Shown piece after piece: positions 10,260-62,718 of a DNA stretch of 64,000 bases. The notes beneath the pieces were generated by a model. It saw only the letters and a program-made list of their open reading frames with translations, did no database searches and had not been told where the DNA came from. Source of the stretch: Candidatus Kapaibacterium sp. (GTDB lineage: Bacteria > Bacteroidota > Ignavibacteria > Kapaibacteriales > HRBIN21). The position numbers and the translations under genes were made by a program. The stretch's first letter is position 1, and each line of letters opens with the position of its first letter. The stretch lies in contig CALKEU010000005.1 in assembly GCA_938084565.1 (NCBI GenBank), positions 69,715 to 133,714 of the forward strand, given 5' to 3'.

Positions 10260-10960
10260 CACCTCTGCTGCGTGCCCAGGACGTGGTGAAAGCTTATTCG
10301 CATCGCTTGCCGCACGATACGCCAGTCTTGCGCGGAGTCAGCCTAGAGCTTGCTGCAGGGGAATTTGTGGCCTTGGTGGGTCCGTCAGGAGCTGGAAAGA
10401 GCACACTGCTGCATCTCCTCGGGGGGCTGGATATGCCTGACAGTGGGACGATTGAGCTTTGGCTCGATGGCCGCTGTTATCGTTATGGCGAACTCCCCGA
10501 TGGGGAGCGAGCTCGCCTGCGGAATCGGGCTATCGGCTTCATCTTTCAGGCTTATCACCTGCTGCCAGAACTGACGGCGCTGGAAAATGTCATGGTTCCA
10601 GCTCTCTTGGCTGGCCTTTCTTGGAAGCAGGCTTTGCAGCGTGCTACGGCCTTGCTCGAACGCGTCGGTATGCGCCACCGGGCCGAGCACCGACCTGCGG
10701 AACTCTCCGGTGGTGAACAACAGCGAGTTGCCATTGCCCGAGCCCTCGTCAATCGCCCTGTGCTCGTGCTTGCCGATGAACCCACGGGAAGTCTGGATTC
10801 AGCCAATGCCGCCCTCGTTCTCCAGCTACTCCATGAGCTCCAAAGAGACTTTGCCACCGCTTGTATACTGGCTACCCACAGTCCGGAGGTAGCCCGTGCT
10901 GCCGTCCGCCAGCTCTACCTCCGGGACGGACGTCTAAGCCCTATGGCCGAGATTGCGTAA
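10256..10960 (+). CDS. ABC transporter ATP-binding protein, LolD/MacB type
   Basis: A 234-residue ATPase with Walker A GPSGAGKST (about 44-52), a Q-loop (FQAYHLLPELTALENVM), the signature LSGGEQQRVAIARAL, Walker B VLVLADEPTGSLD and the H-loop THS. The pattern FQ.YHLLPELTALENVMVPALL fits the LolD/MacB/FtsE group, which works with FtsX-like permeases on lipoprotein release, efflux or division. No permease gene is adjacent, so the partner cannot be named. Its ATG overlaps the pheS stop by 4 bases, so it is translated from the same operon. Confidence 0.88.
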   Translation: MTPLLRAQDVVKAYSHRLPHDTPVLRGVSLELAAGEFVALVGPSGAGKSTLLHLLGGLDMPDSGTIELWLDGRCYRYGELPDGERARLRNRAIGFIFQAYHLLPELTALENVMVPALLAGLSWKQALQRATALLERVGMRHRAEHRPAELSGGEQQRVAIARALVNRPVLVLADEPTGSLDSANAALVLQLLHELQRDFATACILATHSPEVARAAVRQLYLRDGRLSPMAEIA

Positions 10961-11021
10961 ACCTCCTGATACTTGCAAGCGTCTAAAGCTGCCGATAGTG
11001 CTCCCGTTTGAGGTGCTCCCG

Positions 11022-37687: not shown

Positions 37688-37754
37688 TGCTGCTCTTAGG
37701 AGGTTCAACCTGAACTAGGCAACGAATGACACTCTGCCTTCGTGTTGCGCAATG

Positions 37755-37785
37755 TTTGGTAGGGAGTGCAAAACCCCTTATATTG
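37755..37785 (+). promoter_or_regulatory. Bacteroidota-type promoter (TTTG, 20 bases, TATATTG)
   Basis: TTTG (37755-37758), 20 bases, then TATATTG (37779-37785) matches the -33/-7 layout of the Bacteroidota housekeeping promoter, with a T missing in the -7 box. It is 45 bases before ATG 37831, the best-formed promoter in the window. Confidence 0.55.
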
Positions 37786-37830
37786 CGCTTTCGTTGGAGA
37801 GGACCGTCTCATCCAGAAGGAACTGCTGTG

Positions 37831-42200: not shown

Positions 42201-44924
42201 CATTATCTTTTCGAAGCCCTTGTCGAGCGGAGGATGCGCCTGCTCGGGGCGCTCTATGTGGTGGCGCGCTTGCCGTTGGTGCCTTTTGCCGGGCGGGATG
42301 AGTATCGAGCAACGATTCTGCAGCATACGCTGTTGGGGGATCCCTTGCTGCTCTTTCCTGTGGATACGGTACCAGAGCTGTTCCCTATACCGCCTACGCC
42401 CTTTGTCCATCGAGGAGATGGGGTGCCGGCAGCGGAGTTCGTTGCCGGGGATTCTATTCGGGTGCGGATTGTTGTCGGTAATGCAGGGATTGTCCCACCG
42501 AACTCGTGGCGCATACGGCTGAGCTACGACGGGCCGGCGGGCCGTGATACCCTCTGGATTGCTGGGAAGCCGCTCCAGGCGAGCGCTCTGTGGGATACTC
42601 TCCTTCCTTCGGCGTGGAGTCAGCCGGGCGTGCATCGGCTGCTCCTGCAGCTGAATCCGGACAGCACTGTTCGGGAGCGCACGTGGGACAACAACGAAAG
42701 CAGTGTGAGTTACCTTGTGCGCCCTCGGGGACTAGTGCCCCTGGAGCCTCTGCCGTTCTGGCATGTGTCTGCTGGGGCGGCGCACTTCCGGATGCTGAAT
42801 CCATTGGGATCGGCACAGGCCTTCCAGTACGAGGCAGAGCTCTGGCAGGCAGGGGAGCGGATTGCTGTTGCCGCTCCAACAGAATGGCATCTGGTCGATG
42901 AAGTGGTAGATTGGCGCCCAGCAGGGGTACTCCTACAACCTGGCCGACGCTATTCTCTACGTGTCCGTGCACGGGACGGTGCCGATACCCTGTGGACGCA
43001 GTGGTTAGAGGTGCCCTTCTGGGTGGACAGCACCGCTACGGATCGATGGGTTCGCTGGCAACAGCGCGATAGCACTGAGTTTGCCGCCAATAGCCTCCAG
43101 GGCATGGAGATAGTGCCTGGGGAAGATGGAGGGGCTGTTGTACGGCTCCGTCAGTGGAGGCGCTCGGTGGAGGCCTGGTCTGACCCGGTGCGGATTCGGG
43201 CTGCTGTTCGCATCGATGGGGAGCGCATTCTGGAATTGGAACAGGAAGCCGGTATTGGAGCGGTTATCCTCCCAGCTGGAGATGCTGCCCCCAGGGCGTT
43301 TTTCTACCGCACTGGCAGAACTGGTCAACCCGAGGAGGCTGGGTATTTCCTCAGACTCCTGCGGGATTCGGTCCGTGGGGGGGAGTACCTCGTGTGGGTA
43401 CTCTCGGGCGATGGACTCTGGCGTTTCACGGCAGAGCAGTTGGATACCCTTCGGAGTGTGCTCCGGCAGCATTACGGGGCTGTGCGAGTTGATTCTCTGG
43501 CTCGTTCGGGGATAGCCTTTATCTTCATCGGTCGGCGCGGCGGAGAAGGTGGAAGCGCCGTTGAGGTCTTTCGCCGTGGGGATAGCAGTAGGGTGCATGC
43601 ACAGCTTGTCGGCTTTGTGCCGCAAGGGAGGCTGCGGACGCCCTGGATTGGACCAGCCCGACGTCTCGGCCAACTAGAGCTTGAGCTCAGCGCCCTGCAG
43701 TATTGGGAGCTTACTCTCTACGGACGGCGTAGTCTGGGAGAGCCCGAGCACGACATTGTCTGGGATGGCATTGTGCAAGGGGATACAGTGCTCGAGTTGT
43801 CTGAGCAGCCCTATGCCTTCCTTCAGCTAGAGCTTCGGGCCCATTATGTTGAGGGAGCTGCTGTGCCAGAGCTGCGGCGTATCACGTGTACGTTTGAACC
43901 ACAAGGGGAGCTGGCTATACTGCCGGCCTCCCTGTGGGTGCCGACGGGGTTGAGCGGTGATCTCATACCAGTGTCGTTGCGTATCGGCAACCGCTCGCTC
44001 CGGGCTGTAGTCGAGCGTGCTCAGCTGCGTCTAGGGACCCGGTCAGCGCTAGGGGATCAGGAGCGAGAGAGGCGGGAGCTCGATATTTTCCTTCCGCCGA
44101 ATGAGGAGATCCTTGTGGAGAGCAGGCTGTCTACATTTGGATGGAGTCAGCAGGGGATCGTATGGGCAACCCTCCGCACGGAGGGGGAGCTGTATACCTT
44201 CAACAATACGGCTGAGGTACCTTACCGGCTTGCGCTCGATACCCTCCCGCCAACGCTCCAAGTGTGGTGGCGCGATGGAGAGCATTGGGTGCCCTTAGAG
44301 TCAGGAATATCGATTGCTCGTCAACCGGAGCTCTGGTTTGTGTTGTCGGACAACAATACCGCGGCTCCCATCGCGAAAGCCGCGGCACTGCGTGTCTGGA
44401 TTGAGGGACAATTGATGGACAGCACAACGGCGGCCGCGTATCGATTCTACCCCAGTTCGCAGCTGGATTCCCTGCCAGCGTTTCTGCGCGCTCCAGGCGT
44501 ACGCGCGGCGGTGTACTGTCGGCCACAGCGCCTGCCGCTAGGGCGGATTGTCGTATGGGCTATTGGGGAGGATGCCGCTGGTTTGCAGGATACGGTCGAA
44601 CGAGTGGTAGAGGTCACCGATCGCTTTGCCCTGCGATTCCTTGGGCAGTATCCACACCCTACCCCGGGCCCGATATGCTTGCGCTTCGCCTACGAAGGGT
44701 ATACGGCATACGAGCCTGTGCGGGTGGAGATCTTCTCCCTGCTGGGGCAGCGACTCTATGCAGAGGAACGGCTCATCAGGGTGGGCGAGCAGACATGGTG
44801 TTGGCCGGGGCGGACCGATGAGGCGGTGCCTGTGGGGCCAGGGACCTACCTGTGGCGGCTTTGGTTCCCACGGCTCGGACCAGCTATTGGCAGCATAACA
44901 GGTACGATGACGGTCGTGCCCTAA
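39222..44924 (+). CDS. Giant PorU-like protein: gingipain (C25) domain and T9SS C-terminal sorting domain
   Basis: A 1900-residue exported protein (signal peptide MSTILRAILVGALLITEAGA). The middle holds a C25 peptidase domain (about 700-1050) with catalytic His919 in FGHG and Cys949 in TLSCSMGNF, as in gingipains and the T9SS sortase PorU. After it come about 750 residues of beta-rich repeats, including CARDB-like parts around RDTLWIAGKPLQ and WDNNESSVSYL. A C-terminal domain of about 95 residues starts near YPHPTPGPICL and has SLLGQRLYAEERL and GPGTYLWRL, the type A sorting-domain pattern. PorU of P. gingivalis is about 1160 residues, so this one is much longer. Either it is the sortase or a large secreted C25 protease; I lean to a PorU-like sortase. 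thrS lies downstream. Confidence 0.85.
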   Translation: MSTILRAILVGALLITEAGAIVQRRLSPEGLELRLRFEQARLDTMPRGRYAARLGEADAFFLPDSSAAAVEYSTWLVALPEGTSQAELQWEVRHLRQWMPVELGTVGGVWNLQDTAEAPSITPSVRLRPLGYWRGIRLGLLELIPWEYDPGQKRLRLWSDLTVRIRYAKPIAAPVRQAWAPLEEPIGRMLLNAEHALALRRQESALAVMEQPFLLEQPAVRLGTQRDGIAMLPLSDLLALVPEWQGAAAERLQLLWSGKPVPLWLIDSDGRLDASDTLFFFGRRPAGDTTWLDSYSSEEAFFLVLRDSGTGTRFELLEQAEGNEYSEAEILPTLFHWEYERAYVQGVNEGFLRYRTETAPGEGWYWAVVGARRPPWRDSLQLPAFDTVAVRLRAYALNGIPACAPEHRLLIVLNGDTVGLSLRSGWGPLVWDTVLVQGWSAGWNRVELHSVPADTLGSCAVAEQGVDFLEFLVRPQPVAVKGRWQGEVAARNGRSRLVVHGFRSPDIVAVDTLRGRIVRAHGIAEGVLRVAARSGQRAQLELWLGDSLLVRRTQAGVLICWWQPPQFELQQVWVRGMSPELVAVVRGIPPEALVLWVSLEAPTAEALALLGSWGLEQGAYAARDWAWIWVLRRSDPAGKVEQVAPPGSWANVLLGIPLFSSSYRVALALAEADTAHLWIEDREQWQRVSLRRVEPSTLTQPEPQADVIVVAHPRLWSAAQRWADYRRQSRGVRVRLVSVEEIATVFGYGRLSPHALKAFLRYAYTHWQKPAPQAVLLFGSASWDARGLLGYPKPNLVPTYGVPPSDYWYGLLEGDDLIPELIVGRIPAADSVEAMAVVEKIRAWEAAPPVELWRKRAVLIFGYGFLNTSDAYYSWLTSVLGMQPTVFVKETPEPTSSRYGPLIRQALAEGAGVTIYFGHGAEANMEVQGWEPDRLSNAERQGILMTLSCSMGNFAVPYVRAFNEQYVVTARRGMVAALGMSGIGIDLLERTVQHYLFEALVERRMRLLGALYVVARLPLVPFAGRDEYRATILQHTLLGDPLLLFPVDTVPELFPIPPTPFVHRGDGVPAAEFVAGDSIRVRIVVGNAGIVPPNSWRIRLSYDGPAGRDTLWIAGKPLQASALWDTLLPSAWSQPGVHRLLLQLNPDSTVRERTWDNNESSVSYLVRPRGLVPLEPLPFWHVSAGAAHFRMLNPLGSAQAFQYEAELWQAGERIAVAAPTEWHLVDEVVDWRPAGVLLQPGRRYSLRVRARDGADTLWTQWLEVPFWVDSTATDRWVRWQQRDSTEFAANSLQGMEIVPGEDGGAVVRLRQWRRSVEAWSDPVRIRAAVRIDGERILELEQEAGIGAVILPAGDAAPRAFFYRTGRTGQPEEAGYFLRLLRDSVRGGEYLVWVLSGDGLWRFTAEQLDTLRSVLRQHYGAVRVDSLARSGIAFIFIGRRGGEGGSAVEVFRRGDSSRVHAQLVGFVPQGRLRTPWIGPARRLGQLELELSALQYWELTLYGRRSLGEPEHDIVWDGIVQGDTVLELSEQPYAFLQLELRAHYVEGAAVPELRRITCTFEPQGELAILPASLWVPTGLSGDLIPVSLRIGNRSLRAVVERAQLRLGTRSALGDQERERRELDIFLPPNEEILVESRLSTFGWSQQGIVWATLRTEGELYTFNNTAEVPYRLALDTLPPTLQVWWRDGEHWVPLESGISIARQPELWFVLSDNNTAAPIAKAAALRVWIEGQLMDSTTAAAYRFYPSSQLDSLPAFLRAPGVRAAVYCRPQRLPLGRIVVWAIGEDAAGLQDTVERVVEVTDRFALRFLGQYPHPTPGPICLRFAYEGYTAYEPVRVEIFSLLGQRLYAEERLIRVGEQTWCWPGRTDEAVPVGPGTYLWRLWFPRLGPAIGSITGTMTVVP

Positions 44925-49703: not shown

Positions 49704-50972
49704 CTATGTTCCACGGTAGCGGTACTTCGTCCCTGGCGGAAGGGGAGTCAGCAAGCGGTAATCCTCAAAGCCCGTGTAGTCGACGAAGAGGACTTCACGG
49801 TCGCTGTAAATCCAGCGCTCATAGGAGCGCCCATTGCTCTGGAATTGCTCGCGGCGTAGCGGTGGGCCGAAGATGACGTAGACCATGCCACGATCGGTGA
49901 GCCATCCTTCGGTGTAGCTTCGGAAGAGCCGATTGGCCTGGGCGATGCGGTCATAATACTCTTCGAAGGCTTCATTGCGCAATGTACCTGGGGTTGGGTC
50001 GAGAAGCGCCCAGAAAGCCTCGAAGCGGCGTCGCTTCTCGCTACTTGTTGGAGCTGCCAGGATGCTATCGATCTGCTCTTGGGTTGCCACGTACCGGAGC
50101 TGGCGAATAGCTTGCTCAAGGTCGCTGACGGTTCGCCCCCAGAAGCTCCAGAGAAAGCGAACAGAGCGCTCACTCTGAGCCACGGGGGATCCTGCAGAAA
50201 GGAGGCGGATTCGCAGCAGTTGCGATCCCGTCGGGAGTTCTGCAGGGAGCGTCAGCGGCAGGATAAGGATTTGGCGGCCAGGCTCAACGGTAGGGAGTAT
50301 TTTCCGTGCGAGGGTAGCCAGCAGCGTGTGCTGGGGTGAGAGTAATTCGGCAAGTACCTCGAGGCTATCGTGCCGGTAGTGGGCGTAGAGTTCCGCAATG
50401 GCAAAGAAAGGGGAATCCAGCTGGGCGAGATTGTCGTCAAAGTAGGGGGTAATGAGGGGGCGTTCGGAGGTTTCCTCCACGGCGCTGGCAATGAGGATGC
50501 TGCTCAGCGCAAGCTCCGGGCGTCGATAATCCGGGACGCGGTAGCGGCGTGTCAGCTGGTAGGTGCGGTTTGTCGCCTCCTCTGTAATTGCCACAGTGAT
50601 GGTGTAGACCCCCTCGGGGAGATGTTCGACAGTCTGGAGTCGGTCAAAGGCCGCTGTTGCACCTTGAGCGATGGCGTAGGTTGGAGCCGTCAGAGTGCGG
50701 CGATAAAGGCGCTGTCGGATAGTTGTCCCGGTGCTATCGCGAATGGCGATGCTGGCAACATATGTTGCCGAAAAGCCAGCTGTATCGGTGGGCCGAAAGC
50801 TGAGGGCAGCATATGGGACGATGGTCCATACGTCTAGCCGAGCATTGGAATCGGGTATGTCGGCTGCAAAGCAGAGAACATCCATGATGAAGGGTTGTGA
50901 GTCCTGTGCAGTGGCAGCTCCAGCCAGCACAAGGGATGCCAGTATGCTACAGAGCCGTGCCGTAGAGCTCAT
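49704..50972 (-). CDS. Exported GWxTD-domain protein
   Basis: A 422-residue exported protein (signal peptide near SILASLVLAGAATAQ). The last 100 residues include EGWLTDRGMVYVIFGPPLRRE, the GWxTD signature of a domain common in Bacteroidota, Acidobacteria and others, whose role is unknown. The N-terminal part has beta-strand-rich sequence (TYVASIAIRDSTGTTI, YTITVAITEEATNRTYQL). ATG 50972 is used; ATG 50984 is also open. It overlaps the 3' end of rimO and abuts crcB, so the rimO-GWxTD-crcB-DUF190 genes look like one transcript. Confidence 0.85.
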   Translation of the reverse strand: MSSTARLCSILASLVLAGAATAQDSQPFIMDVLCFAADIPDSNARLDVWTIVPYAALSFRPTDTAGFSATYVASIAIRDSTGTTIRQRLYRRTLTAPTYAIAQGATAAFDRLQTVEHLPEGVYTITVAITEEATNRTYQLTRRYRVPDYRRPELALSSILIASAVEETSERPLITPYFDDNLAQLDSPFFAIAELYAHYRHDSLEVLAELLSPQHTLLATLARKILPTVEPGRQILILPLTLPAELPTGSQLLRIRLLSAGSPVAQSERSVRFLWSFWGRTVSDLEQAIRQLRYVATQEQIDSILAAPTSSEKRRRFEAFWALLDPTPGTLRNEAFEEYYDRIAQANRLFRSYTEGWLTDRGMVYVIFGPPLRREQFQSNGRSYERWIYSDREVLFVDYTGFEDYRLLTPLPPGTKYRYRGT

Positions 50973-52257
50973 AGTCGCTTGCATCCTCGATGAGCACGGA
51001 GACGAAGCTGCCGGGGGTCAACGGACGAGAGGAACGAACGAAAACTTCATTGTCAATCTCCGGAGCATCGGCCTCGGTGCGCCCGCGATATTCTCCCTCT
51101 GCGAGACGTTCGTCGAGCAGAACTTGCTGGCGAGAGCCGATTTTGGCCCGATTGAGCTCAGAGGAGATCCCACGCTGAAGCTCCATAAGGGCGCAGAGCC
51201 GTTCCTGCTTGACCTCCGGGGGAATCGGATCGCCGAGTATCCATGCAGCAGTCCCCTCCTCGTGGGAATACGGGAAAACCCCCAGACGCTCGAAGCGGGC
51301 CTGCCGGACGAACTCATAGAGCTCAGCAAAGCGCTCGTCCGTTTCATTGGGATATCCCACAATGAAGGTTGTGCGGAGCGCGACCGTGGGTACCCGTGCA
51401 CGGATGGTCTCCAGCAGCCGTTCGATTGTGCGCCGTGTTATCCCCCGACGCATGGAGGAGAGGACAGGATCGGAGATGTGTTGGAGTGGAATGTCCAGAT
51501 AGCGGCACACTGACGGGGTATCCGCCATAACCTCGAGTATTTCACCGGGGAAGTGGGCCGGATAGGCGTAAAGGAGGCGGATCCAGGCCAGACCAGGGAT
51601 GCGGCTCAAGGCAGCAAGGAGCTCGGCGATGCGGCGGCGGCCGTAGAGATCCACACCATAGAAGGTGGTGTCTTGGGCAATCAGGATGAGCTCTCGAACC
51701 CCTCGTTCGGCTAGGCGTTGGGCTTCGGCGAGAATGTGTTCTATGGGACGAGACCGGTAGCGACCTCGCATGAGCGGGATAGCACAGAAGGAGCAGGGGT
51801 GGTCGCAGCCCTCGGCAATTTTGAGATAGGCATAGTGCCCAGGCGTGGAGAGTTGGCGCTCCCCGACAAGTTCGTAACACGCATCACCCCGTACGGCGCG
51901 TACGATGGGTTCGTAAGCTTCCGGGCCAAAGAAGTAGTCTACCTCAGGCAGTTCGCGACGCAGTTCGTCAGCATATCGAGCGGCTAGGCATCCAGCAACG
52001 ATGATGCGCCGAACAAGGCCGGCGCGCTTCCGTTCAATGGCTTCCAGAATGGCCGCAATGCTTTCCTGCTTGGCAGCCTCGATGAACCCACAGGTATTCA
52101 AGATGAGGGTTTCAGCGCTCTCGATATCTGTCACTGTGACACCGTGGGCTTGCAGGTAGCCTGCCAGCGTTTCCGAATCCACCGTATTCTTGCTGCAGCC
52201 CAGAGTCACGATAGCAACAGTAGGTGTCTGCGCAGCATGCGGAAGGGCTCGTGACAT
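50947..52257 (-). CDS. rimO: Ribosomal protein S12 methylthiotransferase RimO
   Basis: A 436-residue radical-SAM methylthiotransferase that modifies Asp89 of S12. The N-terminal UPF0004 domain starts VAIVTLGCSKNTVDSE and has NTCGFIEAAKQES and VAGCLAARY; the radical SAM site is CDHPCSFCAIPLMRGRYRSRP. The C-terminal TRAM domain is present but short. CAIPLMRG and the length separate RimO from MiaB. ATG 52257 gives the best fit; ATGs at 52272 and 52287 are open. It overlaps the GWxTD gene. Confidence 0.94.
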   Translation of the reverse strand: MSRALPHAAQTPTVAIVTLGCSKNTVDSETLAGYLQAHGVTVTDIESAETLILNTCGFIEAAKQESIAAILEAIERKRAGLVRRIIVAGCLAARYADELRRELPEVDYFFGPEAYEPIVRAVRGDACYELVGERQLSTPGHYAYLKIAEGCDHPCSFCAIPLMRGRYRSRPIEHILAEAQRLAERGVRELILIAQDTTFYGVDLYGRRRIAELLAALSRIPGLAWIRLLYAYPAHFPGEILEVMADTPSVCRYLDIPLQHISDPVLSSMRRGITRRTIERLLETIRARVPTVALRTTFIVGYPNETDERFAELYEFVRQARFERLGVFPYSHEEGTAAWILGDPIPPEVKQERLCALMELQRGISSELNRAKIGSRQQVLLDERLAEGEYRGRTEADAPEIDNEVFVRSSRPLTPGSFVSVLIEDASDYELYGTAL

Positions 52258-54104: not shown

Positions 54105-54641
54105 ATGGGCCCATCACCGCTACCGGGGGTACATATTTGGCTGCGCCTGATAGGCTACGGCATTGCTGCTCTCTGTGGGGTTGTCATTCAGCTTGTGTTG
54201 ATGCCTTCGGTAGCAATTGGGGGTATTGCCCCTGATGTGCTGCTGGTGATAATTCTCTGGATTGCTCTGCGCCATGGGCCAGTGGCTGGCGCCTTGGCTG
54301 GTTTTATCATCGGCTTGCTCGTCGATGCTGTATTGCCAGGAGCTCTCGGGATCAACTCTTTTGCTAAGACTGTGGCAGGCTTCGTCGGCGGCCTATTTGC
54401 CGAGCCCGGGCTCGATAATCCGCTGACTCTGCCATGGCTTCGACTCAGTGCCATCCTGGCTCTCAGCAGCGCGGTTCAGCACTTGCTCTACTATGCCCTT
54501 CTCCTCCATCCTCTGGATGTCTCGCTGGGGAGCTTCCTCCTCACTGTGGCAGGAGCCACAGGTTACTCGCTCGTTGTGGGGGCTCTCATAGCTATGGTAG
54601 CAAAGCTGTGGAGGGGGCGGGACACTATTTCCGAACAATGA
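54105..54641 (+). CDS. mreD: Rod-shape-determining protein MreD
   Basis: A 178-residue integral membrane protein with five to six hydrophobic segments (for example LIGYGIAALCGVVIQLVLMP, PDVLLVIILWIALRHGP and GALAGFIIGLLVDAVLPGALG). The pattern GLLVDAVLPGALGINSFAKTVAGFVGG is the MreD hallmark. It works with MreC in the elongasome. ATG 54105 has GGGAGG just upstream; GTG 54099 is an alternative start that overlaps the mreC stop. It is convergent with the vWA-OmpA gene and overlaps it by 17 bases. Confidence 0.9.
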   Translation: MGPSPLPGVHIWLRLIGYGIAALCGVVIQLVLMPSVAIGGIAPDVLLVIILWIALRHGPVAGALAGFIIGLLVDAVLPGALGINSFAKTVAGFVGGLFAEPGLDNPLTLPWLRLSAILALSSAVQHLLYYALLLHPLDVSLGSFLLTVAGATGYSLVVGALIAMVAKLWRGRDTISEQ

Positions 54642-55953
54642 CAATCTCCACTCGGCGGTTGAGGCTGCGCCCAAATTCTGTGGTGTTGTCTGCTATGGGC
54701 CGGCTGGCTCCGAAAGCAGCCACCAGGAGTTGGCGTTCTGGAACCCCGCGCTGGAGTAGGTATTGGCGGACATTCTCGGCTCGCCGCTGGGACAGACGGT
54801 AATTGTGGACTGCCGTTCCGCGGCTATCCGTATGCCCCTCGATGCGAATGACCACCTCAGGGCGACGCTTCAGGAAGCGAGCCAGGATCTCCAACTCGGG
54901 AACGCTGTCGGGGAGAGTTGCGTCGTTGGTGGCAAAGAGAAGGTGCTCAAGGATGAATTTCCGCCCAATGGCGACAATCGGGATGGTCTGCCGCAGGAGC
55001 TGTTGCTTCTGGTGATCCAGGATAGCCACTCGGATAGAGTCCGGGGGGATCTCCTCGCCCGTGCGATAGGTCAGCACCCACAGGTTGGTTAGCTCTGCTG
55101 CATACTGCTCTAGAATGCGGGAGAAGGGCGCTTGGATATCGTAGAGGCTGCCGCGAGTTGACTCCGCAATGCGCCTGTACTCCTTGAGCTCAGGCCGAGT
55201 GATGCAGAAGACACGAACATGGCGTTCCCGGAGGTAGTCGATGATAGTCTCGGTGGTGAACTCCGTGCGTCCATATCCTTTCTCTCCGCGCTGATGGTAC
55301 GGGGCATCGGTCACGAGCACGATTACTCTGTTGGCTGCGGGACGGAAGGGGTAGCGCGCAGCTTCGGCGAGCGCTTCCAGAGCATTCTCCTTCTCATCCA
55401 TCCCCCCGCTGGCCCAGATGCGAGAAATCCAGCGGAGAAATTCGGCTACCTCTTCGGTGAAGGGATATGTACGCTCGATGACGTCGGAGAATAGGACAAG
55501 GCCCAAGCGGTAATCGATACCGTGGAGCCGGAGCGTTTGTGTGAAACGTTCAATATTGTTGCGTACGCCGTTCACATATGGTTGCATCGTCCCAGTGACG
55601 TCGATGGCGAAGACGAAGTCAATGGGGATGCGCCGCTGTGGGGAAAGGCGGCTGGTGGCGAGCACGGGATAGGTGCGGTCGTTTTCTACGATGGTGAATT
55701 CCTCCGGGTACAGCGTATCGGGGGATTCCCCGAGGACTTCCACAATGAGATTGATGTCGGGGAAGCGTGTAATATCGACGTTGTGCAGGCGTAGCTGAAA
55801 TGTAGTGCGTGTACTCTGGATTCGCGTCTGCTCAAGGAGACGGCGGTGAATATCAGCTGTGTCGGCTTGCGGGAACCTTGTCGGTAAGGCGGAGAGCAGG
55901 CCGAGGACAGCGGCAATCGAGGAGAGACTTCTGTGGCGGCATGCCATAGCCAT
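54625..55953 (-). CDS. Exported protein with vWA domain and C-terminal OmpA-like domain
   Basis: A 442-residue exported protein (hydrophobic start SLSSIAAVLGLLSALP). The von Willebrand A domain (about 115-290) has a metal site of the form DVTGT (Thr in place of the usual Ser), then TDAPYHQ. An OmpA domain (about 330-442) with EGHTDSRGTAVHNYRLSQRRAENVRQYL and RSLNRRVEIVI binds peptidoglycan. The combination suggests a periplasmic protein tethered to the cell wall that senses or docks onto something outside. It is the last of four genes running the same way (59-55 kb). Confidence 0.85.
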   Translation of the reverse strand: MAMACRHRSLSSIAAVLGLLSALPTRFPQADTADIHRRLLEQTRIQSTRTTFQLRLHNVDITRFPDINLIVEVLGESPDTLYPEEFTIVENDRTYPVLATSRLSPQRRIPIDFVFAIDVTGTMQPYVNGVRNNIERFTQTLRLHGIDYRLGLVLFSDVIERTYPFTEEVAEFLRWISRIWASGGMDEKENALEALAEAARYPFRPAANRVIVLVTDAPYHQRGEKGYGRTEFTTETIIDYLRERHVRVFCITRPELKEYRRIAESTRGSLYDIQAPFSRILEQYAAELTNLWVLTYRTGEEIPPDSIRVAILDHQKQQLLRQTIPIVAIGRKFILEHLLFATNDATLPDSVPELEILARFLKRRPEVVIRIEGHTDSRGTAVHNYRLSQRRAENVRQYLLQRGVPERQLLVAAFGASRPIADNTTEFGRSLNRRVEIVIVRK

Positions 55954-56014
55954 TCATTGTTCTGTGTCCATCCACCAGGAGCCGTGTCTCCGTTCTGCGA
56001 GTGTCGTTCTGCTG

Positions 56015-57406
56015 TCACAGGGCGATACGGAGAAGCGGGGAGAGGACGAAGAAATTCCGTGTTTCGAAGAGGCGGACTGGCCGCAGAGGAGTTGCATACT
56101 TTGCTTCAACGTACAACCAGCGCCCCACGATAGGCACGTACGCACGTCCGAGTAAGATTTGGTTGGAGTACTGTAACGAGACGCCAAAGGGAAAGCTACT
56201 CTGGTTGCGATATTCGAACCGTACGTACAGCCAATCGCCTAACTCCTGAGGTTTGTACGTACGCAGCCCTTCCACTCCTTCGCGAGTCAGAGAGACAGTG
56301 GTAGTATTCCGTCGGAGGAGAGCAGCCTCGGTAATTTCAGCATAGCTGATCCCGACGTCCACCCGCAGGAAGTGGGTGGGACGCTCTGGATTGCTCCACC
56401 AGTTGTAAAAAAGGGTCCACTGTCCTGTGGAGCGGAGTAGTGGCACGACGCGGTCGGGATCTATATCGGGGTCGCTTGTGCGGAGGGGGTCACGGTCGGG
56501 CGCAAGCGGGAGGATGGCGTAGGTAGTAGGGTCAATGGAGCTAGAAGGATCGATCCCTTTGAGGGGAATTTCCGCGTGGACATGAGTACCAAGCTGGGGA
56601 TGGAAGGGGAAATAGAAATCAGCCCCCGCAACCAGCTGGCCGCCGGAGCTGAGATTGAGTTTCCGCACGGGGATTAGTCCGCCGAGGAAGTTCGGATCTA
56701 GGCCACCGGTGATACGGTAGCCCATACCGAACTGAATGTCGAGGAGATGGGGGATAGCTTTCTGCGTAGTTTCATCGATGTTTTGGATGAGGGGGCGCTG
56801 GAGGAAGACTCGGGCAATGCCGGCGGACCAGAAGGGATAGCCAATAGGATCGGCACCCGTATTGGCTCGCAGCCAGAAGCCACTGCGTCCGAGTTTGAGG
56901 CTCTGCTCGAAGACGGACACTCCAATGGCGTGTCCCACAGTGGTGGGCATGGTAAAGTTAATGATGGCCTCAGCCTGAGCAGGAGTTGGAGGCACAGTAG
57001 GAGGGATATCTTCGTAGCAGTAGCGGCGCTGTGGGTCCGCAAGGAAGGTAGCCAACCCCCGGATGTTGGCTTCGATCTCCGAAGAGGTCATCTTCGCCGT
57101 GCCGCACTCGATGAGGAGAATTTCGTATTCGGTGTTGCGCCGGCGTGTCGGGGCTGCCGTCACCAGGATGCGTTGCATATCCAACTGCGCTTCGGGGTAG
57201 CCCAGGAGGAGGAAAGTCTGGTGTAGTTGGATCATGAGGTTGGGTTCGCAGATACGCCATCGAGGGAAGTACTTGAGGATATTGGGGTCAATGGTTTTGA
57301 GAGCTGCTACAATTGAATCGGCATCCGGCACCGCAACGTAAGGTTGCGGCTGTGCCCAGAGGAGCGAAGCTGTTGCGATAAGGCAGGGGAGAGTCCAGCG
57401 TTGCAT
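56015..57406 (-). CDS. Outer-membrane-type exported protein of unknown function
   Basis: A 463-residue protein with a signal peptide (PCLIATASLLWAQ). I do not recognise it. The first 130 residues are a small soluble region with TPTRRRNTEYEILLI-like strands. The rest has alternating hydrophobic strands (GFWLRANTGADPIGYPFW, GGQLVAGADFYFPFHPQ, DWLYVRFEYRNQSSFPFGV) and ends on hydrophobic residues, as in an outer-membrane barrel. It begins 10 bases after the end of the upstream barrel gene and shares its layout (helper region plus barrel). Possibly one complex with its neighbours. Confidence 0.6.
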   Translation of the reverse strand: MQRWTLPCLIATASLLWAQPQPYVAVPDADSIVAALKTIDPNILKYFPRWRICEPNLMIQLHQTFLLLGYPEAQLDMQRILVTAAPTRRRNTEYEILLIECGTAKMTSSEIEANIRGLATFLADPQRRYCYEDIPPTVPPTPAQAEAIINFTMPTTVGHAIGVSVFEQSLKLGRSGFWLRANTGADPIGYPFWSAGIARVFLQRPLIQNIDETTQKAIPHLLDIQFGMGYRITGGLDPNFLGGLIPVRKLNLSSGGQLVAGADFYFPFHPQLGTHVHAEIPLKGIDPSSSIDPTTYAILPLAPDRDPLRTSDPDIDPDRVVPLLRSTGQWTLFYNWWSNPERPTHFLRVDVGISYAEITEAALLRRNTTTVSLTREGVEGLRTYKPQELGDWLYVRFEYRNQSSFPFGVSLQYSNQILLGRAYVPIVGRWLYVEAKYATPLRPVRLFETRNFFVLSPLLRIAL

Positions 57407-57416
57407 GGAGTTTCCC

Positions 57417-59102
57417 TTAGAAGTTCAACACTGCGCGGACGGAGGGCACGAACAGGGTGCGTTGTTCCCACAATCGAGGCTCTCGGAGAAGACAGGTAAA
57501 GAGGCGCCCGTCGAAGCGGAGGGAAAAGCTCGGCACAATAGGAATCTGGAGCCATGCTGTTGTCAACAGTGTTCCATCGAAGTATCGGAAGCCGAATCCG
57601 TATGGGGTGCTCACCTCTGTTGACATGAAGTCCACACCTCCGCTAATGCTCCCGATGGTTTCACTGCCCTTACGGATGAAGCGGGGAGACGGTGAGGCAG
57701 CAGTATCGTGCTGTTCTGCCCATGTCTCGCTTCCGTAGAGGGTGCCACCGAGGAGCAGGCGGAAGTAGTAGTTCTTGTCAACAGCGACAGCAAACGAGTA
57801 GTGTGCTTGGACGTGGTAGCGGATCAGGAAGTCGGATTCCTGTTGCAGCTGGGGATTCCAGATTGGGTGGTCTGAGCGCTGTGCATCACCGAAGACATAG
57901 GAAGCAGAGAGGTGAAAGAGGCCACCGTCACGAATAAGCTTGATGGGGAAGTCTACCCTTCCATACAAGCCCCATCCTGCAATGGTCAGCCGCGATCGGA
58001 CCCCCAGCCGTGAGGAAAGCTTGCTCCAGCCCGCCGTTGGCAGCACCACGCCCAAGCGGGCGCTGCTCCAGAGGGCATTTACCGTCAGTCGTTGTGACCA
58101 TACGGAGGGATAGTTGAGCTCTTCCAATCCGTAGCGTAGCTCAACACCGAGCTGGGGCAGATGGCGATTGTAGATTCTCTGCCCTTCTTCCTCAGCTGCT
58201 GCCTCCTCTTCGGCATGAGCCGGAATAGCGTAATGGGTGTAGCGGAGGAGGTCAGGAAAGCTGAGAATCAGTTCGCTCGGTTTTGTGTACTGGAGAGGCT
58301 GCCCCTCGGAGATGCGGAGGTAGGTCTGTACGTCATCCTCCTGCACAAGCTCGGCATTCCCAAAGGTAGGGGGAGCAAATTCTGTATCCTCATCCCCGAT
58401 GCCCTGGGCTTCCAGCGTGACATTCTCGACAGCACCCTGAACCACGGCGTTGGCTAGGTAGTCGTAGAGGGTAGGCGACGGAGACGTTGACGGTGCAGCG
58501 ATACGGCGGAGCTCGGTGAAGAGGAGAATATCAGCATCTTGGACGCTCCGCAAGTCGCGGGCAATCGTGCGTGAGCGGTCTCGAGTCTTGACCAGTGCGA
58601 TGACGCTAAAGGGCTCACCTGGACGGTAGCGAGTTGTGACGACGAAGGCGTTTTTGAAGGCGTTGCAGTTGTTCTGCATGACTTGCACGGCATACTTGAC
58701 CGCTTCAATGGTCTCTGCCCGATTGACAATGCCCGGCGGGACCCCGTCTTCCTCACGAAGTTTACGCAGCACCTCTTGAATGTCAGCGGCGCAGCCTTCA
58801 AGAGTTACGCGATCTTGAATTTGCTGGTAAAGGGCTGGATTGGTCGTCTGCAGAGTGGTCACTACATCGGGAGCTTTCGGCATGGGATTGAGAAGCTCTT
58901 GGATGTCGGCGAAAACTTGGCCTTCTAGGCGGAAGATGGAGATTGTGCTGTAGCGGTAGTTTTTGAACTTGCGCAAGATGGCGCGGATTTCTGCATCTTG
59001 TGCATGCACTACGTCGCTACTACACAGCAGGATGATAATCCCCAAAAGGAAGAGCTGTTGGGAGAGTGCCCGCCGCATCGTCGTTTGTCGGCTGTAGGAC
59101 AT
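57417..59102 (-). CDS. Outer-membrane-type exported protein with extra N-terminal soluble domain, unknown function
   Basis: A 561-residue protein with a signal peptide (LFLLGIIILLCSSDVVHAQ). Residues 36-260 are a soluble region (RILRKFKNYRYSTISIF-like start, then VQVMQNNCNAFKNAFVVTTRYR). Residues 290-561 have beta-strand-like segments ending in aromatic residues and a last residue Phe after Asn, typical of a barrel. ATG 59102 is used, directly after the previous gene; ATG 59078 is an alternative. I do not recognise it. It lies between the membrane-anchored periplasmic protein and another outer-membrane-type gene and is likely part of the same complex. Confidence 0.6.
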   Translation of the reverse strand: MSYSRQTTMRRALSQQLFLLGIIILLCSSDVVHAQDAEIRAILRKFKNYRYSTISIFRLEGQVFADIQELLNPMPKAPDVVTTLQTTNPALYQQIQDRVTLEGCAADIQEVLRKLREEDGVPPGIVNRAETIEAVKYAVQVMQNNCNAFKNAFVVTTRYRPGEPFSVIALVKTRDRSRTIARDLRSVQDADILLFTELRRIAAPSTSPSPTLYDYLANAVVQGAVENVTLEAQGIGDEDTEFAPPTFGNAELVQEDDVQTYLRISEGQPLQYTKPSELILSFPDLLRYTHYAIPAHAEEEAAAEEEGQRIYNRHLPQLGVELRYGLEELNYPSVWSQRLTVNALWSSARLGVVLPTAGWSKLSSRLGVRSRLTIAGWGLYGRVDFPIKLIRDGGLFHLSASYVFGDAQRSDHPIWNPQLQQESDFLIRYHVQAHYSFAVAVDKNYYFRLLLGGTLYGSETWAEQHDTAASPSPRFIRKGSETIGSISGGVDFMSTEVSTPYGFGFRYFDGTLLTTAWLQIPIVPSFSLRFDGRLFTCLLREPRLWEQRTLFVPSVRAVLNF

Positions 59103-59104
59103 GC

Positions 59105-61297
59105 CTAGTACGTGATTGGGATATTGGGAATCGCTGCCCGTCCTTCGCGCGATTCGGCTCCGTTAATAGGATTACGGGCTTTGGCCGTTATAAGCAGCGA
59201 GACCGTGCCATCGAGACGTCCGCGCCGGACCGGGAGAGGCCCGTCGAGGCGGATGCGAACTTCATAGGTATTGGCTCCCGCCCGTTGGATGGATACACTT
59301 GGCTTGTAGTTGGGAATGTCGGCACGGGTAATCTGGACACGCACATCTTTGATGTCGTCCGCTGTAGCTGAGCGCTGCACGTCGACGAAGGGAGGCAAGA
59401 TCGTAATGCCGGTGATGAGGATTTCAGGATTGCGCGGGTCGATCGTGGGGTCAATCTTGACATCCCCGACGGCAATGCGAGGAGCTCGCTGCTGGGGGAG
59501 ACCAGTCCCTTCGTAGAGCGGAACCAGCTCGCCTGTGTACGGATTCTGCCATGCAACTTGAACGGTCACCGAGGAAGCCGTAGCGGGAATGTCACGTTCG
59601 GCTTGGAGGCCGGGAGCAATAGGCTGCTGATCCGTGCCCAATAGGATAGCGGTCCGGAATTGGGCTGCGGGGATTTTGCCTCCCGAGCTCGGCTGGGCAA
59701 CGACTTGGAAGGTGTAGCCATAGAAGAGGCTGTTTTGGAGCATGGCGTCGATATCCTGAGCATTCTCAAGGCGGCTTGGGAAGACAACCAGGCGAGCCTC
59801 AGAAGTGGCTTGTTTCCCGACTACGTTGGTATGGGTGATGCGGATAGTATACTGACCGGCACTGACAGGTTCGTTGATTTGGAGTTCGAACTTGTGGTTC
59901 GTTGCTGCTCCAGCCTGGGCCGTGCCGGCTACAAGTTCAGGCCCGAGATCGGCTAGACGGAAGGGCAGCGGAGGCTGGATCGAGACTGTCGGAGGTTTCC
60001 CCCCCGGAATTATTGGGCCAGCAACGAAGGGAATGACGATCCGTTGGGCTTTGTCGAACGAGTAGAACTCCTCCTGGGCCAGGAAGACCTTGGGATCAGC
60101 CGGTGGGGGTACGGCGGGCTTAATGACGCGAATATCGATAGCAATACTTGAGCGGTTCTGTTCGAAGCCAGCCGATTGGCCAGGGGCAAGCAGACGAGCA
60201 ATGTAGCCGTAGAGTTCGAGTTTGCTGATGATTTCGGAAGCCTTTTCGGGAAATTCTCGCCGCGCATAATCCATCGATGCTTGCAATTGATTGAGAAATT
60301 CCTCAGCATCGATCCGGCCAGCGATGAGGTTGTCAGCCAGGGGGGGATTGTAGGCATCGAGTTCGTATTCGAGCGAGTTCTTGACCAGATGCAGATCTTT
60401 AACCTTGATTTGCACGGTGCCAATGTTGACGGTTTCATCCCCTGTGAGCTCGAGCGGTTTCTCGCCTTGGATCCCAAGGATACGATTTGTGCGGGAGGCA
60501 AAGCGGAGTTTATACCATCCAGGTTGGGCGGGGGGCTGGAAGCGGATAGCGAAGACGCGTTTCTTGATACGTCCGCCGTTCTGATGGGCTCGGTCGAGTG
60601 TCCGCTTGTGGTCGTACCAGAAGATGCTATCCTTAGCAGCGGCGTCGGCAGGGGCAAAGCGCCGTATGTCTCCGATAGCAATGCTGTAGGGCTTGTAGAC
60701 AGGGAGCTGATAGTCTCGTGTTGCAGCCAAATCCAGCTCCAGGCGACGCATTGCCAGAAGTCGCCAGGGCGCGCCCTCAACTTCGGAGCCAATGGGTTGG
60801 CCTTCGCTGAGGCGTTCCCAGGGGATGCGCCGGAGAGAATCATCGGGCAGGAAGGGAGGTGGTTGTTCAGGATTCGGGCTGGGGTGGTAGAAAATTTGGT
60901 AGTCTAGCTCCTGAACATTGGCCAGGCGGATGAGGTTCTGCAAGCGCTGCTGTGCTTCAGCTGGCTCGAGCTCTTCGGTGGTAGAAAGACCAGAGACGTC
61001 TGTGACCCCCACCTCGACTTCGTAATAGCGATCTTGGCGAATCTGAATGCCCCCCGATGTCTGCATGAAGCCTTCCGTCAGCGTGATCTCATCCTTCGGG
61101 CGCGTTGCAATACCTTCTGTCCCCGTCCCCACCTGGAGTTGGGAGAGGATGCTCTGGACGATGCGCATGGACTCTTTCTGCTTCTGGAGCAGGTGCTCCT
61201 CGGCGTCGTCGCGCTCGACGATGATGAGGAGCAATTCCAGAACGACCGCTAGGTAGAGCACGAAATATACCTTGCCTGGCCCGCCGCCGCGCGCCAT
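59105..61297 (-). CDS. Single-pass inner-membrane protein with large periplasmic part, GldM/PorM-like architecture
   Basis: A 730-residue protein. One hydrophobic segment near the N-terminus (about 9-29, KVYFVLYLAVVLELLLIIV) is followed by charged helix, then about 650 residues with beta-sandwich-like segments (GWYKLRFASRTNRILGIQG, GQYTIRITHTNVVGKQATS, SSVTVQVAWQNPYTGEL). GldM/PorM, the T9SS motor shaft, has the same layout but is about 515 residues; I did not find a motif that proves homology. The context (followed by two outer-membrane-type proteins and a vWA-OmpA protein) suggests an envelope-spanning machine. It could also be a novel one. Function unproven. Confidence 0.55.
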   Translation of the reverse strand: MARGGGPGKVYFVLYLAVVLELLLIIVERDDAEEHLLQKQKESMRIVQSILSQLQVGTGTEGIATRPKDEITLTEGFMQTSGGIQIRQDRYYEVEVGVTDVSGLSTTEELEPAEAQQRLQNLIRLANVQELDYQIFYHPSPNPEQPPPFLPDDSLRRIPWERLSEGQPIGSEVEGAPWRLLAMRRLELDLAATRDYQLPVYKPYSIAIGDIRRFAPADAAAKDSIFWYDHKRTLDRAHQNGGRIKKRVFAIRFQPPAQPGWYKLRFASRTNRILGIQGEKPLELTGDETVNIGTVQIKVKDLHLVKNSLEYELDAYNPPLADNLIAGRIDAEEFLNQLQASMDYARREFPEKASEIISKLELYGYIARLLAPGQSAGFEQNRSSIAIDIRVIKPAVPPPADPKVFLAQEEFYSFDKAQRIVIPFVAGPIIPGGKPPTVSIQPPLPFRLADLGPELVAGTAQAGAATNHKFELQINEPVSAGQYTIRITHTNVVGKQATSEARLVVFPSRLENAQDIDAMLQNSLFYGYTFQVVAQPSSGGKIPAAQFRTAILLGTDQQPIAPGLQAERDIPATASSVTVQVAWQNPYTGELVPLYEGTGLPQQRAPRIAVGDVKIDPTIDPRNPEILITGITILPPFVDVQRSATADDIKDVRVQITRADIPNYKPSVSIQRAGANTYEVRIRLDGPLPVRRGRLDGTVSLLITAKARNPINGAESREGRAAIPNIPITY

Positions 61298-61328: not shown

Positions 61329-61721
61329 TTACTGTTGGGGAGTTGAGCTTTCAGAAGATGGAGTCCCTTCGGCATGGTCACAGCAGCTGTGCTTATCCTT
61401 GCTCTCACTGTGCTGGCCCTTGGCGCAGCAGCTCTGCTTATCCGTGCCCTCACTGTGCTGCTCTCCGCCCTTGGCACAGCAGGAGCGATGTGTACTCGCT
61501 GCAGATATTGTTGAAGCAGCCTCTGCGGCTGAAGCTTCGGCTGTTTCCTGTACTGTAGTGTCTACGACCTTGCTCGTGTGCTGGGCTTTCGTAGCGCAAC
61601 AAGATCGTGAAGATGCCTTTGTGCGGCAGTTTCCGTCTCCATGTGCATACGCTCCTGTACTACCAGCGATGAAAAGGCTCAAAGCGAAAGCTGTCAAGAG
61701 CATACGGCTGAACTTCTGCAT
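61329..61721 (-). CDS. Small exported Cys-Cys repeat protein
   Basis: A 130-residue protein. A signal peptide (MLLTAFALSLFIAGSTGAYA) is followed by a hydrophilic region with four Ser-Cys-Cys elements at residues 40-42, 80-82, 97-99 and 112-114, plus Cys32. The last three are in repeated units of the type SCCAKG(x)QHSEs(x)DK. The Cys-Cys pairs, His residues and acidic residues would suit metal binding or surface thiol chemistry. I do not know the family. ATG 61721 is chosen over the open upstream frame because it starts the signal peptide and follows a TACATTTG box. It lies between speE-like and the GldM-like genes. Confidence 0.65.
   Translation of the reverse strand: MQKFSRMLLTAFALSLFIAGSTGAYAHGDGNCRTKASSRSCCATKAQHTSKVVDTTVQETAEASAAEAASTISAASTHRSCCAKGGEQHSEGTDKQSCCAKGQHSESKDKHSCCDHAEGTPSSESSTPQQ
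61371..61490 (-). repeat. Direct repeat region encoding SCCAKG-type units
   Basis: Within the Cys-Cys protein gene, tgctct(t/c)..ctcactgtgctg type units recur two to three times about 50 bases apart, encoding the SCC(A/D)..QHSE.. repeats. The region is low-complexity and may vary in copy number between strains. Confidence 0.45.
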
Positions 61722-61773
61722 TGGACTGACCGTTGAACTGTGACACAAGCAGATAGCAAGCACGAACAAAATG

Positions 61774-61781
61774 CAAATGTA
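61774..61781 (-). promoter_or_regulatory. TAnnTTTG -7 promoter box for the Cys-Cys protein (TACATTTG)
   Basis: On the minus strand TACATTTG matches the consensus and lies 52 bases before ATG 61721, in the gap after the aminopropyltransferase stop. Confidence 0.45.
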
Positions 61782-61806
61782 GTGTAGTTTGCACTTCCCA
61801 TTGCGC

Positions 61807-62718
61807 CTACGCCTGCCAGACGAAGGCATTCTGGTCGTGGATGAGGCGTCCACGCTGGTGAAGAGCCTCTTCCAGATAGGGAGGCAGAACAAACATGGCC
61901 GAGTGCATATGTGGGGAGTAGTACCGACTGTAGAGCTGCCGAGTGCGGTAGCGGTGTTCGAGTTCAGGAAGGGGGAGAGCGATTGGATTGTAGGCTTTGC
62001 TAGCCATGATGAAGGCCCAGGGGAGTTGGAAGGAGGACACGAATGCCCAGTAGAGGCCTACCCAGGGGAAGACCTCCCGTAGTGTTTTCCTCAGGCTAGC
62101 CGCAAAATCGGGATAGAGGGGGTCAGCGCTTCCGGCCTGGGCGACGAAGAGGCCTTCCGGGGTAAGGCGGGAGGCAAGGTGCTTGTAGAATTCGACCGTA
62201 AAGAGCATGACGGACGGGCCACCTTCGATGGGTTCGGTCAGGTCGGAGATGATGACATCGTAGGTGCTTTCCGGGCTATTTTCCACGAAGGCTCGCGCAT
62301 CGCCGTAGTAGAGCTGTGTTCTCGGGTCCTGGAAGCAGCCCTGGTGCCATTCCGGCAACAGGCGCTCGCAGAGCTCGACGAGCTCCCGATCGATGTCGAC
62401 CATAACCGCCTGCTCTACGCACGGATGGCGCAGCACTTCGCGGAGGGTGGCTCCCTCGCCGCCGCCCATGATCAAAACGCTGCGAGGGTGAGGATGAGTC
62501 ATCAAGGCTGGATGGACGAGGCTCTCATGGTAGATAAACTCGTCGACTTCTGCCGACTGAATACGGCCATCCAGGAAGAGCGCTTTGCCCAAAGCAGGGG
62601 CACGGACAATTGCTACGCTCTGGTAGGCCGTGCGACCCAGGAAGAGAACCTCATGGACGCGATAGTGGAATTGGAGGTGTTCGGTGTGCTGATCGATGAT
62701 CCAGATACCGCTTGCCAT
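61807..62718 (-). CDS. Aminopropyltransferase of the ACL5/thermospermine-synthase type
   Basis: A 303-residue polyamine aminopropyltransferase; it moves aminopropyl from decarboxylated SAM to a polyamine. It has QSAEVDEFIYHESLVHPAL, IMGGGEGATLREVLRH and ISDLTEPIEGGPSVMLFT. The segment DLTEPIEGGP corresponds to the plant ACL5 'DLADPVEGGP' motif, whereas classical spermidine synthases have D(S/T)(S/T)DP here; VAQAGSADPLY also agrees with ACL5. It may therefore make thermospermine or another long polyamine, as expected in thermophiles. It starts 6 bases after nrdJ, so the two are likely one transcript. Confidence 0.85.
   Translation of the reverse strand: MASGIWIIDQHTEHLQFHYRVHEVLFLGRTAYQSVAIVRAPALGKALFLDGRIQSAEVDEFIYHESLVHPALMTHPHPRSVLIMGGGEGATLREVLRHPCVEQAVMVDIDRELVELCERLLPEWHQGCFQDPRTQLYYGDARAFVENSPESTYDVIISDLTEPIEGGPSVMLFTVEFYKHLASRLTPEGLFVAQAGSADPLYPDFAASLRKTLREVFPWVGLYWAFVSSFQLPWAFIMASKAYNPIALPLPELEHRYRTRQLYSRYYSPHMHSAMFVLPPYLEEALHQRGRLIHDQNAFVWQA

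Follow-up and report, generated by a model that had tools for sequence, protein, structure and literature searches.

The region studied here lies in a 64,000-nucleotide stretch of DNA from Candidatus Kapaibacterium sp., a member of a little-known branch of Bacteroidota (contig CALKEU010000005.1), referred to below as the window. It holds four genes on one strand, encoding M730, B561, B463 and a vWA-OmpA protein (Table 1), and an ORF check of the window gave spacings of 2, 10 and 61 bases, exactly as described in a preceding sequence-only reading. The M730 family was present in 60 of 61 genomes of the order to which Candidatus Kapaibacterium belongs. The genes of M730, B561 and B463 were kept together in 19 of 19 further, non-congeneric neighbourhoods, and the vWA-OmpA gene accompanied them in 18 of the 19; the encoded proteins were 24 to 56% identical to those of the window. 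As gene order and strand are conserved across the order at these identities, the block is more than a chance arrangement. Searches of Pfam, NCBIfam and the PDB supplied no names for the four proteins except vWA and OmpA. A lack of conservation in relatives or clear matches to unrelated families had been named as grounds for abandoning the idea of a module; both were looked for, the block proved to be conserved, and the searches returned no match that would dissolve it. A gene for a small CC-rich secreted peptide just upstream of the M730 gene, which is likely the fifth gene of the module, and a GldL-like gene elsewhere in the window were not part of the earlier description.

Table 1. Features discussed in the text, with their positions in the window
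Feature	Position	Strand	Basis
M730 (GldM-like shaft gene, 730 aa)	59105-61297	-	ORF
M730 membrane helix, residues 9-30, motif KVYFVLYLA..E..IIVERD	61208-61273	-	sequence, alignment
B561 (561 aa)	57417-59102	-	ORF
B463 (463 aa)	56015-57406	-	ORF
vWA-OmpA protein (442 aa)	54625-55953	-	ORF and domain matches
Small secreted CC-rich peptide (~130 aa)	61329-61721	-	ORF 61329-61892, read from its internal Met
GldL-like membrane protein (476 aa)	37726-39156	+	profile match at 38641-39090
PorU-like C25 peptidase (1900 aa)	39222-44924	+	matches to T9SS sortase models

M730 has a single hydrophobic helix at about residues 10 to 27, followed by about 700 residues, which bears out the proposed combination of one N-terminal membrane helix and a large periplasmic part. 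The helix is among the best-conserved stretches of the family: in N-terminal alignment numbering, Y15, E28, R29 and D30 were present in 42 of 42 relatives from the class and E21, inside the helix, in 37 of 42. In MotB-like axles, an acidic residue inside the helix is the proton site. In other orders of the class, members of the shaft family are about 190 to 640 aa long, compared to 730 aa in the window. Pfam searches with all members of the M730 family gave weak Ig-like matches and nothing else, and PDB searches with the single sequence and the profile gave nothing credible (best E value 0.18 or worse). The AlphaFold models of M730 and B463 were poor (pLDDT 48 and 39), because each run used just four close sequences. 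In the low-confidence model of M730, the N-terminal 300 residues are unmodelled and the C-terminal half is predicted as about three Ig-like domains; residues 402 to 730 aligned with generic Ig/cadherin-like chains (Z up to 8.0), and GldM/PorM was absent among the best 50 structural matches listed for this model.

B561 consists of a signal-like N-terminus, a soluble region of about 290 residues and a C-terminal barrel-like domain, whereas B463 combines a signal-like N-terminus with an alpha/beta domain of about 120 residues (pLDDT roughly 55 to 88) and a C-terminal barrel-like domain. The C-terminal 140 columns of the two families are paralogous (hhalign probability 96.8%, reversed control 0.4%). 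From the signal-like N-termini, the alternating C-terminal strands and the terminal aromatic or hydrophobic residue we infer that both are barrels. The sequence features thus agree with the suggested pair of barrels with soluble N-terminal regions, but the fold predicted for B463 is too poor to serve as proof (pLDDT 38.7); a structural search with it gave unrelated matches with a best Z of 5.2. The structural matches of M730 and B463 thus count neither for nor against a given fold. PDB searches with the B561 and B463 profiles yielded nothing credible (best E value 0.18 or worse), and neither protein had a profile match in Pfam or NCBIfam, including Pfam searches with all family members. Cys101 of B463 is invariant in 21 of 21 sequences, and Cys53 and Cys130 co-vary. 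A conserved cysteine in a periplasmic region deserves attention, as disulfide bonds that link SprF and PorG to GldK were reported in 2025 (excerpts of PMC12635249).

In the product of the fourth gene, the VWA domain (2e-11) and the OmpA domain (2.1e-20) that had been recognized in the sequence-only reading were both recovered. D118, T120, T215, D216, D376 and R391 are invariant in 21 rows of its alignment; we take the first four to be MIDAS-type positions and the last two to be the peptidoglycan-binding positions of OmpA domains.

A profile comparison of M730 with GldM had been proposed as a check, and it spoke against similarity: hhalign of 48 M730 and 30 GldM sequences gave a probability of 0.2%. 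The GldM profile TIGR03517 likewise had no match in the window's own genome at E ≤ 10. The N-terminal helix of the M730 family matched that of GldM not beyond chance, 28 of 150 nulls being as high. A 540-aa shaft form of other orders reached an hhalign score of 38.7 against GldM with 0 of 100 nulls as high, in one grouping of seven sequences; in five other groupings the score faded to between 21 and 29.5. As the sequence comparison does not show homology, M730 is proposed to work in a GldM-like manner but is not classed as GldM.

A survey for a GldL-like partner, likewise proposed, was successful. In other orders of the class, a shaft gene was present at 18 loci, and at 11 of these a two-helix GldL-like gene lies directly upstream of it; the same arrangement was seen at seven of seven fetched loci of one family of the order (f7), which were selected because both matches lie on one contig. 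In the window, a distance of about 20 kb separates the GldL-like gene from that of M730; the GldL-like product has two extra N-terminal hydrophobic helices followed by the GldL-like hairpin, with R348 in helix 1 and E368 in helix 2. An arginine in TM1 and a glutamate (E85) in TM2 are invariant across 11 GldL-like rows. GldL-like genes occur in 61 of 61 genomes of the order, with several copies in most. The GldL profile TIGR03513 gave no match in the window's own genome at E ≤ 10; hhalign paired the glutamate of the GldL-like proteins with the TM2 glutamate of GldL at a score of 21.8, compared to 14.7 ± 3.4 for column-shuffled nulls, of which 4 of 150 were as high (p about 0.03). For GldL itself, excerpts of PMC8986121 describe E49 as strictly conserved in helix 2 of a two-helix hairpin. 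At six of six loci fetched from the order, a PorU-like C25 peptidase gene adjoins the GldL-like gene, and the two are also neighbours in the window. With the T9SS sortase models, the window's C25 peptidase stayed below the cut-offs, scoring 171 bits where 450 are required and 126 bits where 420 are.

Components of type IX secretion are present in these bacteria. SprA was found above cut-off in 41 of 41 genomes of the order, the window's own included, and this genome has 26 matches to the T9SS C-terminal tails of TIGR04183, 16 of them over the cut-off. In a sample of 148 genomes of the phylum, SprA was detected in 117 and the GldM profile in 39, which raises the question of how secretion is driven in the deeply branching lineages. 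The shaft family and the GldL-like proteins occurred in the same 20 genomes; as the GldL-like profile was built from genes beside shaft genes and seven of its source genomes are in the sample, this agreement exists in part by construction. All 20 genomes with the shaft family also have SprA, and none is among the 39 with GldM. Since 59 of the 117 SprA-positive genomes have neither GldM nor the shaft family, SprA without a recognized motor is common and the argument from absence is weak.

We propose, with a probability of about 0.65, that type IX secretion in this lineage is of a divergent kind with a proton-driven motor of the GldLM type, and that the block encodes the shaft of this motor and its outer-membrane half. 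For the stoichiometry, the flow of protons, the rotation and the protein contacts we infer the following. The GldL-like protein may assemble into a ring in the inner membrane that encloses the N-terminal helix of an M730 dimer. Protons passing via acidic residues, namely the glutamate of GldL-like helix 2 and possibly E21 of M730, would make the shaft rotate or tilt, and its Ig-like periplasmic domains would pass the motion to B561 and B463 via the soluble region at the N-terminus of each. Anchorage on peptidoglycan would be the task of the vWA-OmpA protein, and the machine driven would be the SprA translocon, secreting CTD-tagged proteins. Of the two options left by the sequence-only reading, a T9SS variant or a different trans-envelope machine, the former is backed by SprA, the CTD tails, the GldL-like linkage, the PorU-like neighbour and the missing GldL and GldM profile matches; it is held back by the missing profile similarity of M730 to GldM and by the quality of the shaft models, none of which was good enough for a whole-length comparison.

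It is unlikely that the block descends from canonical GldLM and simply escapes the profiles in this lineage, GldK and GldN being encoded at other sites of the genome and B561 and B463 serving as no more than PorP- or PorG-like accessories. This explanation would retain the role as T9SS motor and lose most of the novelty. The T9SS parts, SprA and CTD tails, fit it, as do the hhalign hints that link the GldL-like proteins with GldL and the 540-aa form with GldM. Against it stand differences in size, in charged residues and in the partner genes, together with the result of comparing M730 with GldM; Pfam and NCBIfam searches of the four module proteins also returned nothing resembling a GldK or GldN domain. 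Improbable, too, is a different proton-driven trans-envelope machine of GldLM or MotAB/TolQR layout that serves surface motility or envelope maintenance and is unlinked to SprA. The adjacency of GldL-like and PorU-like genes in the order, the presence of SprA in every sampled genome with the shaft family and the lack of overlap with GldM speak against it, although the GldM profile has no match in the genome, GldL-like copies are multiple in most genomes of the order, and family f7 has several shaft paralogues. The acid inside the shaft helix also favours such a machine: excerpts of PMC9389320 describe an acidic residue in the helix of AglQ/AglS axles as the proton site, whereas excerpts of PMC8986121 place the conserved acid of GldM, E31, merely close to the helix and describe it as dispensable. 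A static envelope scaffold, in which a pillar anchored in the inner membrane is combined with two proteins of the outer membrane and a clamp on peptidoglycan, would account for the adhesive or anchoring vWA and OmpA domains, for a module free of enzyme domains and for the lack of a GldL-like gene within the window's block; strong conservation of the shaft's membrane helix would be needless in an inert anchor, however, and a two-helix partner with invariant arginine and glutamate adjoins the shaft gene in relatives, making this explanation highly improbable. A TonB/ExbBD or Tol system was dropped for want of family matches, a T6SS-like TssL because the OmpA domain is the sole common element, and a conjugation or phage origin because the block is order-wide.

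If the proposed T9SS motor exists, it would explain type IX secretion in bacteria lacking the textbook motor genes. The module is a concrete motor candidate for one large branch of the phylum, and the shaft and GldL-like proteins form a searchable family pair. They provide natural variation for two questions, the identity of the proton-carrying residues and the way in which the GldL ring is kept in place during GldM movement; the second is called open in excerpts of PMC9389320. Whether disulfide coupling as described for SprF/PorG and GldK (excerpts of PMC12635249) extends beyond GldK could be tested on the cysteines that co-vary and on the CC-rich peptide. A bolder version, possible but in our view doubtful, is a second, independently built class of T9SS motor, in which an axle with its own MotB-like acid, E21, would sit inside an acid-bearing GldL-like ring anchored by the extra helices, the GldK/GldN ring would be replaced by B561/B463, clamped to peptidoglycan by the vWA-OmpA protein, and, within the order, Cys101 and the CC-rich peptide would link covalently by disulfides to the part that moves. 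In the open-licence PMC literature we found no description of T9SS motor genes in Kapabacteria, which is no proof of their absence in print; type IX secretion and Kapabacteria taken together led to one paper, on hot-spring CAZymes.

Compared with known systems, the vWA-OmpA protein resembles PorE in its OmpA-family C-terminal domain, which scored 59 bits with NF052230, far under the cut-off of 600; a vWA domain takes the place of PorE's other domains. B561 and B463 are like PorG, SprF and PorP in that a T9SS genome encodes them and that they are predicted to be barrel-like and located in the outer membrane, but each has a large soluble domain at its N-terminus and neither matches a profile. 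In the bolder version, the free Cys101 of B463 and the CC-rich peptide would couple covalently by analogy with SprF/PorG and GldK, with other partners; in contrast to SprF/PorG, the cysteines lie in the N-terminal domain instead of a C-terminal tail and are confined to the order. With the 5:2 motors MotAB, TolQR, ExbBD and AglRQS, M730 shares an acid within a single axle helix, and the GldL-like proteins of the order share a set of four hydrophobic helices, the last pair of which follows a long loop, although Pfam and NCBIfam searches showed no similarity of these proteins to MotA/ExbB. As in GldM/PorM, one membrane helix at the N-terminus of M730 is followed by an extensive periplasmic region, and the Ig-like domains of its low-confidence C-terminal model may correspond to those of GldM, in which a helical D1 precedes three Ig-fold domains, D2 to D4 (excerpts of PMC12421860); M730 differs in E21, the ERD motif and its length, the GldM set having about 510 to 560 aa. 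Compared to GldL, the GldL-like protein of the order has a long loop and, at its N-terminus, two additional helices, but shares with GldL/PorL the two-helix hairpin with an invariant glutamate in helix 2, and as in GldLM the GldL-like and shaft genes are adjacent in relatives, though not in the window.

The sequence-only reading had placed four same-strand genes in the window, separated by gaps of 2, 10 and 61 bases, and these positions were confirmed by the open reading frames. They encode the 730-residue GldM-like shaft M730, the barrel-like outer-membrane proteins B561 and B463, and VWA, whose vWA and OmpA domains were the only named domains that Pfam and NCBIfam returned for the four proteins.

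Features of the window and their positions
Feature	Position	Strand	Remarks
M730	59105-61297	-	ORF
B561	57417-59102	-	ORF
B463	56015-57406	-	ORF
VWA	54625-55953	-	ORF; vWA + OmpA domains (Pfam, NCBIfam)
Small secreted CC-rich peptide	61329-61721	-	signal peptide, repeated CC motifs
GldL-like ORF	37726-39156		~20 kb from M730; family profile match
C25 peptidase, 1900 aa	39222-44924		directly after GldL-like gene; T9SS-sortase models, below cut-offs
966-aa outer-membrane protein	10953-13853	+	carboxypeptidase-regulatory + OMP_b-brl_3 domains
GWxTD-domain protein	49704-50984	-	signal peptide

The genome holding the window comprises 1.87 Mb; in the named collection, Candidatus Kapaibacterium, HRbin21 and one Bacteroidota MAG are near relatives of it. 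M730 is present in 60 of the 61 genomes of the order Kapaibacteriales; genomes of its family f7 (e.g., G011, G037 and G047) show up to 6 M730 matches each, several in frames of ~800 aa. We compared 22 neighbourhoods, namely our own, those of two near relatives and 19 others, every one a separate genus. The order M730-B561-B463 and the single strand were kept throughout, including 19/19 of the non-near ones, two of which were counted after tblastn rescue of genes masked by opposite-strand ORFs. VWA is next after the trio in 18 of the 19 further neighbourhoods and is absent from L038. The conservation of the block in relatives, a check named in the sequence-only reading, was thus borne out. The C-terminal 140 columns of B561 and B463 are paralogous (profile comparison, 96.8%, E 2.6e-10; reversed control, 0.4%).

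The membrane helix of M730 is near-invariant in an alignment of 22 order sequences. Among 42 sequences from the whole class Ignavibacteria, Y15, E28, R29 and D30 of the helix region are found in 42/42 and E21, within the helix, in 37. Such conservation would be unneeded for an inert anchor and would be expected of a helix packed inside a ring.

M730 relatives from other orders of the class occur in forms of ~190 to 640 aa. Eighteen of 20 stretches fetched from these orders contain a shaft gene, and directly upstream of it, on the same strand, 11 of the 18 carry a gene for a two-helix hairpin, here called GldL-like. At two loci, L148 (14394-15911) and L152 (14366-15877), a further gene encoding a single-helix protein (503 to 505 aa) with a related ERD motif lies upstream of the GldL-like gene, so that in some loci one GldL-like gene is flanked by shaft-like genes on both sides. 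When the 11 hairpin proteins are aligned, helix 1 has an Arg and helix 2 a Glu that never vary. The same layout is found in GldL, including the helix-2 Glu, described in PMC8986121 as essential and strictly conserved (E49), and a basic residue in helix 1, visible in the GldL rows of our alignment. The GldL-like profile scored 21.8 against 29 GldL sequences, with Glu aligned to Glu (column-shuffled controls, 14.7 +/- 3.4; 4/150 reached 21.8), which is suggestive of a relationship to GldL, not proof. Neither Pfam nor NCBIfam recognized the GldL-like family.

This family is present in 61/61 order genomes. In its member in the window, the hairpin is preceded by a long loop, and two additional hydrophobic helices lie at the N-terminus. 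The GldL-like and C25 peptidase genes are adjacent in all six order loci fetched; at L204, one locus from another order, the GldL-like gene has no C25 peptidase neighbour. In f7, a GldL-like gene is the immediate upstream neighbour of a copy of M730 in 7/7 loci, which were picked for having both matches on one contig. Most order genomes contain three GldL-like genes, with frames of ~450, ~340 and ~270 aa; our genome has only the first kind.

SprA, the T9SS translocon, was found in 41/41 order genomes, and our genome contains 26 matches to T9SS tails, the C-terminal secretion tags of substrates, 16 of them exceeding the cut-off. The GldM and GldL profiles gave no match in this genome at E<=10. 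In a phylum sample of 148 genomes, SprA was detected in 117, GldM in 39, and the M730 and GldL-like families in 20 each. Comparison of the genome lists by hand showed that the latter two families share the identical 20 genomes, all SprA-positive. This agreement is limited by the origin of the GldL-like profile, which was built from shaft-adjacent genes and has 7 of its source genomes in the sample. GldM-holding and M730-holding genomes showed zero overlap. As 59 SprA-positive genomes, including 16 from the class of the window, have neither a GldM profile match nor the M730 family, the GldM profile misses much, and further motor variants probably remain to be found.

In B463, Cys101 is present in 21/21 order rows, whereas Cys53 and Cys130 occur together in 16, are both missing in 5 and never occur singly (hypergeometric 5e-5, relatedness ignored). 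The arrangement looks like a disulfide within the protein, with a single invariant Cys left free; it was absent from the 12 relatives examined outside the order. The fast-evolving CC-rich peptide is encoded just upstream of M730 in 13/22 neighbourhoods, and the same test on 182 other genes found such a neighbour for 3. Because SprF and PorG are joined to GldK by disulfide bonds, according to PMC12635249, disulfide coupling may be proposed here by analogy as a fair guess, no more.

In the most likely mechanism, GldL-like proteins would assemble into an inner-membrane ring, a dimer of M730 would act as the shaft, B561 and B463 would receive its motion at the outer membrane, VWA would clamp peptidoglycan, and SprA would be the pore being driven. 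Genes, linkage and residues are observed; assembly and motion we infer.

A profile comparison of M730 (48 sequences) with GldM (30 sequences) gave 0.2%, so that the GldM check proposed for the 730-residue protein returned no sequence match, and the N-terminal helices scored within controls (28/150 as high). Seven forms of ~540 aa from other orders reached 29% and a score of 38.7 (controls, 0/100 as high), aligning to GldM columns 243-418; five other sequence groupings scored 21 to 29.5. In the poor predicted structure of M730 (pLDDT 48), the C-terminal half has a general likeness to Ig and cadherin chains (Z up to 8.0). This likeness agrees with D2-D4 of PorM, which are Ig-like according to PMC12421860, but is not specific. 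We therefore do not claim identity as GldM by sequence and limit our claim to M730 working like GldM.
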